A stretch of 64,000 nucleotides of DNA. Origin: Candidatus Baldrarchaeota archaeon (GTDB lineage: Archaea; Asgardarchaeota; Baldrarchaeia; Baldrarchaeales; DXJG01). This document shows positions 42,883-49,942 of the stretch, piece after piece (position 1 is the first letter of the stretch; each line of letters begins with the position of its first letter). The translations under genes and the position numbers were made by a program. The notes below the pieces were generated by a model. That model was not told the origin of the DNA. It saw only the letters and a list, made by a program, of their open reading frames with translations, and searched no databases. The stretch covers positions 1 to 64,000 of the forward strand of contig DXJG01000001.1 of assembly GCA_019056805.1 (NCBI GenBank), read 5' to 3'.

Positions 42883-44315
42883 TTATTTTTTAAGACTACA
42901 GTATTCTCGAATATTAATGTACTCGTAGGCATCGGTTAGACTATCGAAACAGTAGTGAACTTTTTGGAAGGCTTTTCTAAATTCGACAACATCTTTAGCA
43001 ACATCTTTGGGATTCTCTTCATTAAATACGATTCTTTTAATAAATTCTGCTATTTCCTCCATGTCGGATTCTTTCATTCCTAATCTAGTAACTTCACTAA
43101 CTCCTAGACGAATACCTCCAGGTCGTTTATAATCTCTTCCAACTCTTTTGTCCCATGGAAGCAAATTCCGATTAATTATAATGTTGGCTTCCTCTAATTT
43201 TTTCTCAACTGTCATACCGTCCTTCAGCGGTGTTTCACTAATGTCTACGAGAATCGTATGTGATTCCGTAAATCCTTTATGTTCAGCGAGAACCTTAAAC
43301 CCTCTTTCGTACAAGGCTTGGCCTAAGGCTTTAGCGTTTTTAATGATTTGACCGGCATACTCGCTACCAAAAGCAAGCATCTCTGCAAAGGCTACAGCTT
43401 TTGGTAGCAGCAGAATTATCTGCTGCTATTCCCAGCAACTAGGTGCAAATGATGATTGCTCATGGTAGACGGGAAAGCTGCTTTTTTGAGTTCCTCAGCA
43501 TATTTGCTATGCGAGAGGACCGTTCCTCCTTGTGGTCCTGGCAATGTTTTGTGTGTACTTATCGTGAAAACGTCCGCCCCTTCTCTTAAGGGGTCTTGGA
43601 ATTTTCCACCGGCAATAAGTCCTGCAACGTGTGCTCCATCGAAGTGTATATATGCACCGATTTCATCTGCAATTTCTCTAATTTCTTTTACTGGTTCTGG
43701 AAATAGAAATACGCTGGCTCCCATTATGAATAATTTTATATGTTTTCCTTCCTTTGCGAGTTTTTTAACTCGTTTTGCTGTTCCATCTACATCGATGTTC
43801 ATTTCTTTCTCGTCAAAGGCAAAATAGTGTACTTTTAAGCCCCTGACTTTCCCCGCCGTGCCCCAGAGTTTTTTCTTTGCATAGCTTATGTGGCCGCCCG
43901 AGGGAATTGAAATACTCATTATATGATCTCCAGGTTCGGTAAAAGCTGAATATACTATTAAATTTGCAATCACTCCGCTTATGGCGCGGACATCAGCAAA
44001 TTCTGCTTTAAATAATTTTTTAGCTAACTCAATAGCTATTTCTTCTACTTGATCTATATAGATACATCCAGCATAAACGCGTTCGCCGGGCCAACCTTAC
44101 CGGTCCCAGTTTAACTGGGACTTTCGGCGTATCTGTTTCCGAAATCGCTGCATAAACATTCTCGAACTGCTGGACTTGGAATGTTTTTCCGACCCAGCCT
44201 TCTATGCTGGGTTTTCGGAAGCTATTAGTGGAATTGTGCTTCGGAACCACTGATGATGTTCTTTTAATAGTTCAAATATTTTATCGTAGTATTTCTTTGC
44301 TTCTTGTTCTTCCAT
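42883..44315 (-). CDS. glyA: serine hydroxymethyltransferase, interrupted by three BHB introns
   Basis: It interconverts serine and glycine with a one-carbon carrier. Read straight, the gene breaks into three frames with stops. Removing 28 nt (44186-44213), 26 nt (44097-44122) and 29 nt (43400-43428) leaves 1350 nt, exactly 450 codons including stop: a 449-residue protein, normal for SHMT. Restored family motifs are LIASENIPSPAVRE, DFGNRYAEGWPGERVYAG and SNHHLHLVAGKAVAFAEM. The PLP lysine lies in STHKTLPGPQGG. GGAGGG precedes the ATG. A pseudogene would not be expected to show three frame-restoring BHB folds. Confidence 0.93.
43400..43428 (-). other. glyA mRNA intron C (29 nt, BHB with one mismatch)
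   Basis: The inner helix AGCAGCAGA/TCTGCTGCT (9 bp) closes a TAAT loop. The 5' bulge is AAT and the 3' bulge AAA. The central helix TGGG/ACCA has three pairs and one G-A mismatch next to the bulge. Cutting AA|T and AA|A joins gtt-gct-ggg-aa to a-gct-gta-gcc, giving Val-Ala-Gly-Lys-Ala-Val, as expected. Without splicing the frame ends at a TAA within the loop. Confidence 0.83.
44097..44122 (-). other. glyA mRNA intron B (26 nt, BHB)
   Basis: Exon GCCG pairs with intron CGGT (one G-U). The 5' bulge is AAA, the inner helix GTCCCAGT/ACTGGGAC (8 bp) closes a TAA loop, and the 3' bulge is AAG. Cutting AA|A and AA|G joins tac-gcc-gaa to ggt-tgg-ccc, giving Tyr-Ala-Glu-Gly-Trp-Pro, as in SHMT. Only 63 nt (21 codons) separate introns A and B. 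Confidence 0.9.
44186..44213 (-). other. glyA mRNA intron A (28 nt, BHB)
   Basis: In transcript order, exon TCCG pairs with intron CGGA (4-bp central helix). The 5' bulge is AAA, the inner helix ACCCAGC/GCTGGGT (7 bp) closes loop ATAGAAG, and the 3' bulge is AAA. Cutting AA|A at both bulges joins gct-tcc-gaa to aac-att-cca, giving Ala-Ser-Glu-Asn-Ile-Pro, the conserved SHMT start of the substrate site. The unspliced frame meets a TAG inside the loop. Confidence 0.9.
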
Positions 44316-44725
44316 TTCTTTCCCTCCTGGTATAATTATGTTAAAATTATTTCTTGAACTTATCAATATGTTTGTTTTAGCGGTAGTTAAATTCTTGGTC
44401 CCGTGGTTTATATAAGCTATCCTTTGCTATTTTTAAAGGGAAACTCATTTGTATATGCCTCTTTCTCTCTACGTATTTGTTCAATTATAAATTTAAGTAA
44501 TGAAGCAATTTGTAGGCCTTTTTGTGGATATTATTAGGTGATTGGTTTTGTGGTTAGGTCGATTTACAAAACTTAAGATGATTCTGGTATAGTTTCTTTC
44601 TCTCTTTATGTTACAATCTTAGTTTATGCGTGTACAAAGAACCCTGCTTGTTGTGTTAAAAGAAAGATTAATATTTTGAATTAATTTAATAATTTTGACA
44701 ATTTAAGTATTTGAGGTGTAATTTA
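44316..44725. other. divergent intergenic region glyA/Sec61-beta
   Basis: About 410 bp. On the minus strand CTTATATAAA (44407-44416) is a plausible TATA box for glyA, giving a leader of some 65 nt. Nothing else was recognised. Confidence 0.4.
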
Positions 44726-44920
44726 ATGTCTCGCAAATCTAAGAAGAGAAAGAAAGAAGGCCCTATGCCTGTAACTGGTGCTGGTTTGATCAGGTTCTTT
44801 CAAGATGAAACTAGAGGTATAAAAGTAGGTCCACTTGCAGTTATTATCCTTTCGTTCTTCTTAGTTATTCTTGTGGGACTAGCTTGGTTAAGGTCTTATG
44901 GATTAATACCGTTTCCATAA
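44726..44920 (+). CDS. secG: Sec61-beta preprotein translocase subunit
   Basis: About 64 residues: basic N-terminus MSRKSKKRKKEGPMPVTGAG, then LIRFFQDETRGIKVGP and a single membrane segment (VIILSFFLVILVGLAWL). This is the archaeal SecG/Sec61-beta plan. The ATG at 44726 is chosen with AGGTG upstream. Overlaps zpr1 by 25 bp, convergent. Confidence 0.93.
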   Translation: MSRKSKKRKKEGPMPVTGAGLIRFFQDETRGIKVGPLAVIILSFFLVILVGLAWLRSYGLIPFP

Positions 44921-48903: not shown

Positions 48904-49331
48904 GAGCTTCCCTCCGAATTTAGCAAGGAGGGAAACAAGAACAAGAAATATAAATTTTTCATAGATAGATATTTACATCTACGTTGGAAAAGATGACATA
49001 AAACTACATAAATTATTAAATCTATCTAACATTTGTAAAAATATTTTTTGTAAAAGAAAATATTTTATTATATTTCCAAAATATAGTGCAAGTTTCAAGA
49101 ACTTAACTCGTAACAAAGTGATTGATAAAAATCGACTAACTTCAAATCTCTGAATAGCCAATATAAGATAAAAATCTAGCAAATATCAATAAAAACATCT
49201 AGAAACAATAGAATAAAGATCCAACGTCGCAACTTCCATTTTTTTTAACCCAATAAATATAAATAAACACGTATAGTACAACATATCAACAAGAACTTAA
49301 ATGAGAAAAAACGTCTAAAGAGGGAAAAAGA
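48904..49331. other. divergent intergenic region between acyl-CoA synthetase and porG
   Basis: About 428 bp, very AT-rich, no gene seen. AATAAATATAAATAAAC (about 49252-49268) is a candidate TATA region for porG. Confidence 0.45.
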
Positions 49332-49942
49332 ATGAAGGAGAAAGGAAAAATAATAGAAATACGAAGTCATGGTCGAGGTGGACAAGGTGTGGTTATTTTT
49401 TCTGAACTCTTGGCAAAAGCTGCATATTTAGATGGCTATATGGCGCAGTCGTTCCCATTTTTCGGCGCAGAAAAGGCAGTTCTTCTCTGAAAGGACTGCC
49501 TCTGCAGAGGCGTGGAGCCCCCTTAATGGCTTTCACACGAATTAGTGATAAAGAGATTTTGTTAAGAAGCCAAGTTTATAATCCTGATATCGTTGTTGTT
49601 TTGGACCCAGTTATCTTAGAGCTAGTAAATGTCACTGATGGATTAAAAGCTGATGGATGGTTGATTGCAAACACTCCAAAGAAACCAGAAGAACTTGGTT
49701 TAAACGGGTCTTTTAAAATCGCAACCGTTGATGCTACCGGCATTGCATTGGAATTAAATCTAAAAGTTGCAGGTTTCGCTGTAGTCAACACACCGATGTT
49801 AGGAGCGTTTTCCAAGGCTACGAAATTAGTGTCACTTGAATCGGTCAAAAGAGTTATTTTAGAGGAATGGAAAGGTGAACTAGCGGAGCTAAATGCCAAA
49901 GCAGCTGAGCTAGCCTTCGAAAAAACTATTGTAAAAGTTTAG
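49332..49942 (+). CDS. porG: pyruvate:ferredoxin oxidoreductase gamma subunit, interrupted by one BHB intron
   Basis: The gamma chain of pyruvate:ferredoxin oxidoreductase. The first exon encodes MKEKGKIIEIRSHGRGGQGV and reaches FPFFGAE; then the frame shifts into a stop. Removing 35 nt (49473-49507) leaves 576 nt, 192 codons including stop: a 191-residue protein of normal size. It reads FPFFGAE-RRGAPLMAFTRIS, the conserved PorG motif. It is on the opposite strand from porDAB, with a glycosyltransferase gene in between. Confidence 0.93.
49473..49507 (+). other. porG mRNA intron (35 nt, BHB)
   Basis: Exon GCAG pairs with intron CTGC (4-bp central helix). The 5' bulge is AAA, the inner helix AGGCAGTTCT/AGGACTGCCT (10 bp, one G-U) closes a 7-nt loop, and the 3' bulge is AGA. 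Cutting AA|A and AG|A joins gca-gaa to agg-cgt-gga, giving Ala-Glu-Arg-Arg-Gly-Ala. The length is not a multiple of three, so the unspliced frame ends at the TGA in the loop. Confidence 0.92.

Follow-up and report, generated by a model that had tools for sequence, protein, structure and literature searches.

The window analyzed here is a 64,000-nucleotide (nt) stretch of a Candidatus Baldrarchaeota archaeon, an Asgard archaeon (assembly GCA_019056805.1, contig DXJG01000001.1, positions 1 to 64,000). It carries glyA, encoding serine hydroxymethyltransferase, and porG, encoding the gamma subunit of pyruvate:ferredoxin oxidoreductase. The reading frames of both genes are broken by short insertions, three in glyA and one in porG. 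An initial annotation had read these four insertions as bulge-helix-bulge (BHB) introns that are cut after the second bulge base, and had placed them at the coordinates listed in Table 1. The coordinates were right. After removal of the insertions at these bonds each gene forms one open frame and conserved motifs are restored. Spliced glyA encodes a stop-free protein of 449 amino acids (aa) matching NF000586 with 466.7 bits (cut-off 335), and spliced porG encodes 191 aa matching NF006321 with 229.6 bits (cut-off 225). The motifs IASEN/IPSPAVRE, RYAE/GWPGERVYAG and HLVAG/KAVAFAEM are rejoined in GlyA and FGAE/RRGAPLMAF in PorG (slashes mark the junctions).

Table 1. Coordinates of interrupted genes and of BHB introns in the window and elsewhere
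Feature	Position	Strand	Details
glyA (serine hydroxymethyltransferase)	42883..44315	-	exons 44214-44315, 44123-44185, 43429-44096, 42883-43399
glyA intron 1	44186..44213	-	28 nt, bulges AAA/AAA, helix TCCG/CGGA
glyA intron 2	44097..44122	-	26 nt, bulges AAA/AAG, helix GCCG/CGGT
glyA intron 3	43400..43428	-	29 nt, bulges AAT/AAA, helix TGGG/ACCA, one G.A mismatch
porG (pyruvate:ferredoxin oxidoreductase gamma subunit)	49332..49942	+	exons 49332-49472, 49508-49942
porG intron	49473..49507	+	35 nt, bulges AAA/AGA, helix GCAG/CTGC
tRNA-Leu(CAA) intron	5465..5490	-	26 nt, bulges GGA/AAA, before anticodon; tRNA read by eye
tRNA-Pro(CGG) intron, D-arm region	28947..28974	-	28 nt, bulges GAG/AAA; tRNA read by eye
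pyrG intron, same genome	C9 155012-155043	-	32 nt, bulges TAA/AAT
tRNA genes with BHB introns, same genome, contig C9	265586-265717 (-), 38683-38712 (-), 4557-4585 (+), 324977-325004 (-), 448302-448327 (+)		read by eye
porA intron, Jordarchaeia	L003 4446-4478	-	also L194, L193, L192, L203; BHB, 28-33 nt

The predicted folds, written as helix, bulge and stem of one side followed by stem, helix and bulge of the other, are TCCG AAA ACCCAGC / GCTGGGT CGGA AAA for glyA intron 1, GCCG AAA GTCCCA / TGGGAC CGGT AAG for glyA intron 2, TGGG AAT AGCAGCAG / CTGCTGCT ACCA AAA for glyA intron 3 and GCAG AAA AGGCAGTT / GACTGCCT CTGC AGA for the porG intron. Two 3-nt bulges on opposite strands around a 4-bp helix, which the initial annotation had proposed for all four insertions, are found exactly in glyA introns 1 and 2, in the porG intron and in a pyrG intron described below. 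Intron 3 of glyA is a relaxed BHB, because its central helix contains one G.A mismatch. Cutting the bond between the second and the third bulge base restores frame and motif in all five of these introns, which come from 43% of the genome. In glyA intron 1 two registers of the A run can fold. Only the one with the TCCG/CGGA helix (28 nt) restores the frame; the 26-nt register was rejected on this ground. The register favoured by RNAfold for glyA intron 3 (bulge GAA) was likewise discarded, as by reading it yields a stop. Self-splicing was also considered. The window contains no Rfam match to group I or group II intron families at gathering cut-offs, and at 26-35 nt the introns fall far below the size of a ribozyme. 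On this basis group I or II introns were rejected for the window.

All five introns recur at identical positions in G001 and G002, two further species of the same genus, at 75-86% nucleotide identity to the genome of the window (G000): 81-82% for glyA, 75-76% for porG and 84-86% for pyrG. The three genomes are 91, 91 and 84% complete. Intron lengths in G000, G001 and G002 are 28/28/28 nt for glyA intron 1, 26/27/26 for glyA intron 2, 29/29/29 for glyA intron 3, 35/33/34 for porG and 32/31/31 for pyrG. Thus, three of the five vary by lengths that are not multiples of three, so that the unspliced frames differ between species, and alignment of the spliced proteins runs through the junctions. Among 58 central and inner base pairs (five introns, three genomes; stem lengths picked by the analyst), eight vary and four of these have both sides changed, one in glyA intron 2 and three in porG. 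The mismatch of glyA intron 3 is constant in all three genomes.

The exons are under purifying selection, as indicated by nonsynonymous and synonymous divergence (dN/dS; the larger dS values, above 1, are near saturation) in the pairs G000-G001, G000-G002 and G001-G002: 0.06/1.67, 0.07/1.79 and 0.01/0.46 for glyA, 0.11/2.27, 0.12/2.38 and 0.02/0.21 for porG, and 0.03/1.24, 0.03/0.84 and 0.004/0.23 for the first part of pyrG. The ratios span 0.02-0.09 over all pairs. These data bear on the possibility that the genes are decayed or misassembled, their frame breaks being errors or lesions of pseudogenes. The assembly is indeed a draft of 18 contigs (1,922,513 nt), and both glyA and porG have paralogues. 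However, identical insertions occur in the separate genomes of three species, comparison of G000 with each of the others gives a dN:dS of about 0.02-0.05, and the sole pyrG locus found carries the interruption in every one of them. The chance that decay or misassembly explains the insertions is thus practically negligible.

The pyrG intron, the fifth of the set, was found by a scan for BHB geometry covering 834,202 nt, i.e. 43% of the genome (the window, C6 64001-84000, all of C9 and C11 1-138000). Its removal rejoins KIDPY/LNVDPGT and gives a CTP synthase of 550 aa (TTG start as M) that matches NF003792 with 728.9 bits (cut-off 308). In each genome of the genus the searches gave a single pyrG gene in two pieces; a further copy was not found in any of the three, which are 91, 91 and 84% complete. 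Sites with a structure score of at least 30 and at least three A among the six bulge bases numbered 15, versus 6 in the reversed sequence, a control that retains hairpins and mirrors the geometry; this ratio is descriptive, since score and A criterion were chosen after the first cases were known. At lower cut-offs the contrast shrinks (22 versus 12 at score 28, 38 versus 32 at score 26), and weak matches are therefore no evidence. The 15 top sites comprise five mRNA introns (four in the window and the one in pyrG), four tRNA introns recognized by eye and six sites without a visibly interrupted gene.

Several other candidates were ruled out as introns. Strong folds at C9 438506 and 284624 lie antisense to an open frame, those at 414051 and C6 80719 lie within an open frame, C11 110193 is intergenic and C9 83843 has no open frame nearby. 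At C9 240855-240880 the frame of a DNA ligase is open throughout, C9 101338 is by reading coding, and 33-nt structures in L094 and L096 are antisense to an open glyA frame. A scan based on codon scores gave about as many frame-restoring matches as shifted controls, and a stricter version returned glyA intron 2 as sole match; both were dropped in favour of the structure-first scan. The search for similar frame-breaking hairpins suggested by the initial annotation has thus added pyrG, and only this one further intron in 43% of the genome.

The tRNA introns of the same genome share the BHB motif and the cut rule with the mRNA introns. In the window, introns following the rule that the initial annotation had extended to tRNA-Leu and tRNA-Pro are present, at scores below 28, i.e. 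lower than those of the mRNA introns; the tRNA-Pro intron has one mismatch in the central helix and an alternative 30-nt register that scores equally. Several tRNA introns on C9 are located at non-canonical places, with at least two introns in one tRNA and an intron in the T loop of another. ARAGORN, applied to the window and C9 1-400000, reported four tRNA genes and none of the four intron-bearing ones read there by eye.

The genome also encodes the expected enzymes: the search for EndA subunits and RtcB that the initial annotation had proposed yielded two EndA and one RtcB. EndA alpha (184 aa) aligned to A. pernix 3p1z_B with an E value of 1.4e-44 and contains the Tyr, His and Lys that we take to be the catalytic residues. 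EndA beta (178 aa) aligned to 1a79_A (E 3e-29), and the aligned His is absent. RtcB is a single uninterrupted gene (608.5 bits), and one open gene is found in six of six genomes. In EndA alpha a Lys-Pro-Lys sequence aligns with K44 of A. pernix, which marks a lysine loop of the type known in enzymes of broad specificity, and all 13 other Asgard EndA alpha proteins aligned have Lys-Pro-Lys or Lys-Pro-Arg. According to the available part of PMC12397907, the loop lysine of crenarchaeal EndA (K44 in A. pernix) usually precedes Pro or Val, with Lys or Arg as the next residue, and species with lysine-type loops tend toward diverse tRNA introns. Both EndA kinds are present in 13 of 14 further genomes; in G050, which is 70% complete, only a beta-like protein was found. 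Judged from these sequences, the EndA pair, its lysine loop and RtcB should permit introns in mRNA.

The splicing that we propose for glyA and porG would proceed as follows. The BHB fold would form in the nascent mRNA in the cell, EndA alpha and beta acting together would cleave each strand behind the second base of its bulge, and RtcB would join the exons. The spliced mRNA would then be translated to the full-length enzyme, and the excised intron may be released as a circle. Translational bypassing, with precedents in gene 60 of phage T4 and the byps of yeast mitochondria, would instead leave the insertion in the mRNA and let the ribosome hop over the hairpin. The insertions are short hairpins and the frame is restored when they are skipped, and their length would be free to vary if take-off and landing sites were fixed. 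However, the insertions end at BHB cut bonds, by the rule to which tRNA introns of this genome also conform, the bulges and the central helix are mostly preserved among species, and the enzymes for BHB splicing are encoded in the genome, which makes bypassing very improbable. Alternatively, cleavage of the glyA and porG mRNAs by EndA could serve to inactivate or regulate them, with no productive ligation to follow. BHB sites in mRNA can be cut outside coding-region introns, and in Haloferax processed BHB sites have been reported in a 5' untranslated region. Cutting for regulation alone is nevertheless very improbable: at each site the frame and the conserved motifs are recovered when the insertion is removed, and no full-length protein is encoded by the unspliced mRNAs.

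Related interruptions occur in other Asgard archaea. Among 12 fetched porG loci, those of the three genus genomes and of G003, a member of the same order and another family, are split, and eight are in one frame. G003 is without the porG intron of the genus and has its own porG intron of 28 nt at a different site, with the fold CCTC AAA GGGTGAGG / CCTCACCC GGGG ATT (bulges AAA/ATT); its removal restores PVLN/TPMLGAF. When the fetched archaeal loci (592,548 nt) were scanned for BHB folds, an interrupted porA came to light; most further matches lay outside broken frames. When porA was searched in 119 genomes, four of 30 fetched loci were split at the same place and 26 formed one frame; the remaining genomes were judged from the matches listed, with entries containing one stop (e.g. 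G006, G010, G081) left out. The four split genes belong to G016, G030, G037 and G056, all four sampled genomes of one genus of Jordarchaeia, which NCBI places in Promethearchaeati, the Asgard archaea. Over about 4.2 kb, loci of G030, G066 and G050 match records of Ca. Jordarchaeia QZM_A3, Ca. Njordarchaeum guaymaensis GB_154 and Ca. Jordarchaeum JNZ_1113, respectively, with 100% identity; these three genomes share the phylum of the window but belong to other orders. Here the introns are 33, 33, 33 and 28 nt long, and their removal restores AAYPITPQT. Of their central and inner pairs, all 11 persist in the four genomes, with no changes other than G-U or one-sided ones.

For pyrG, matched in 140 of 148 genomes searched (one-stop entries of other genomes were left out of the reading), two genomes of one other Asgard genus, G013 (L249) and G070 (L250), have a common 31-nt interruption at DQDFGTY/ERFLG. 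In G013 the frame-restoring cut corresponds to the second-best local BHB, a weak AU-rich fold (score 18.1, one mismatch); the interruption in G070 was not listed by the BHB scan. With porG interrupted at another site, porA, and a weak-fold pyrG at another site in other Asgard lineages, BHB introns were likely gained more than once in this group. The glyA gene was matched in 33 of 39 genomes searched. From these, 30 loci were fetched: 26 are in one frame over the part present (two of them partial), the three loci of the genus are in four pieces and the locus of G008 is in two. The latter (L091, minus strand, near 1460-1510 of the reverse complement) has a 41-nt interruption at GWPGE/RVYAG that forms a long bulged hairpin and not a canonical BHB.

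A BHB intron in the cbf5 pre-mRNA of Desulfurococcales and Sulfolobales was reportedly described by Watanabe in 2002. The cbf5 introns are said, in the available part of Yokobori 2009 (PMC2738675), to have unconventional BHB forms, to be cut between bulge bases two and three and to have been lost in particular lineages, and the passage on cbf5 in PMC7714728 (2020) names it as the only further BHB intron reported. The introns found here resemble that of cbf5 in the predicted cut between the second and third bulge base, in unconventional BHB forms, in a hetero-oligomeric endonuclease and in lineage-specific presence and loss; they differ in their hosts (glyA, porG, pyrG and porA in Asgard archaea) and in numbering up to three per mRNA. 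The cbf5 intron itself was not found in Asgard archaea, cbf5 being stop-free in all six genomes checked (G000-G005), and the Asgard introns are thus only of the same kind.

With archaeal tRNA introns, which the available text of PMC11291895 describes as dense and non-canonical in Atabeyarchaeia and Freyarchaeia, they have in common the motif, the cut rule, the size and presumably the enzymes, and the tRNA genes of the genome studied here also contain non-canonical and multiple introns. In contrast to tRNA introns, their host is an mRNA and their ends are constrained by the reading frame. Group II introns, reported in Asgard genomes, are likewise intervening sequences in archaeal genes, but the introns described here measure 26-35 nt. 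In the parts available, PMC11291895 (2024) gives introns in 92-95% of the tRNA genes of three Asgard genomes and mentions none for mRNA, and a 2026 review (PMC13149111) speaks of splicing in archaea solely for tRNA. No title or abstract opening on BHB introns in glyA, porG, pyrG or porA was found in the literature covered, which largely excludes subscription journals and bioRxiv. This, together with the cbf5 passage in PMC7714728, agrees with the view of the initial annotation that BHB splicing of glyA and porG was undescribed. The process is of the kind known from cbf5; new are its phylum, the involvement of several genes, the presence of several introns in one gene and the likely repeated gain.

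Several observations weigh against the proposed splicing. The outer helix is a single pair in the porG intron and in glyA intron 1, and two pairs in glyA introns 2 and 3; outer pairs change freely among species and are not maintained. The central helix of glyA intron 3 is mismatched, one cell of a porG stem pair is broken by a change in G002, and the larger dS values (above 1) are near saturation. Intron-free paralogues of glyA and porG are present in the same genome and of porA in the Jordarchaeia genomes, so that the cell might do without the interrupted copy. The machinery does not explain the patchy occurrence of mRNA introns, because the EndA pair and its loop are found in nearly all Asgard archaea tested. 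Finally, a covariance model built from seven trimmed motifs retrieved five places in the genome, all members of its training set; it is too narrow for counting, and the genome-wide number of introns is therefore uncertain.

Taken together, genus-wide presence, frame-breaking length changes, two-sided stem changes, purifying selection and the presence of EndA and RtcB support the assignment of the initial annotation. The insertions in glyA and porG are very probably BHB introns of pre-mRNAs, predicted to be excised by EndA and joined by RtcB to give full-length enzymes. As for the general mRNA splicing system that it had deduced, "general" is too strong: the 43% of the genome that was scanned yielded five introns in three genes, and cbf5 is uninterrupted. 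In a wider sense, Asgard archaea probably run a multi-gene splicing of mRNA by the tRNA machinery, with BHB introns gained independently in core metabolic genes of several lineages, up to three per mRNA, and obligatory in protein-coding genes of organisms without a spliceosome.

In the literature covered, as far as its available text goes, the only accepted BHB intron in an archaeal coding region is that of cbf5 in Crenarchaeota. Here, seven well-supported positions are added in four Asgard metabolic genes (three in glyA, two in porG, one each in pyrG and porA). If true, this would be a rare case of multi-gene mRNA splicing outside eukaryotes, with obligatory introns in protein genes, and no spliceosome, in the archaeal group closest to eukaryotes. 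If the mRNAs are spliced as predicted, standard gene callers truncate GlyA, PorG, PyrG and PorA, the genus relies on RNA splicing for the only CTP synthase gene found in it, and the gain of introns in protein genes by a protein-only machinery can be followed in Asgard genomes. It can now be tested whether a two-subunit endonuclease with a lysine loop makes the spread of introns from tRNA to mRNA possible.

Two further observations were made in this genome. On the minus strand of C9, 83843-83897 forms a 20-bp hairpin with almost perfect pairing and a base resembling a BHB; neither strand has a long open frame there. In the window, porA (51568-52770, minus strand) is uninterrupted, and the por genes (49332-53107) are split: the plus strand encodes porG, the minus strand porB, porA and a ferredoxin-like subunit, and a glycosyltransferase-like gene lies between them; the names of porB and of the ferredoxin-like and glycosyltransferase-like genes were assigned by reading alone.

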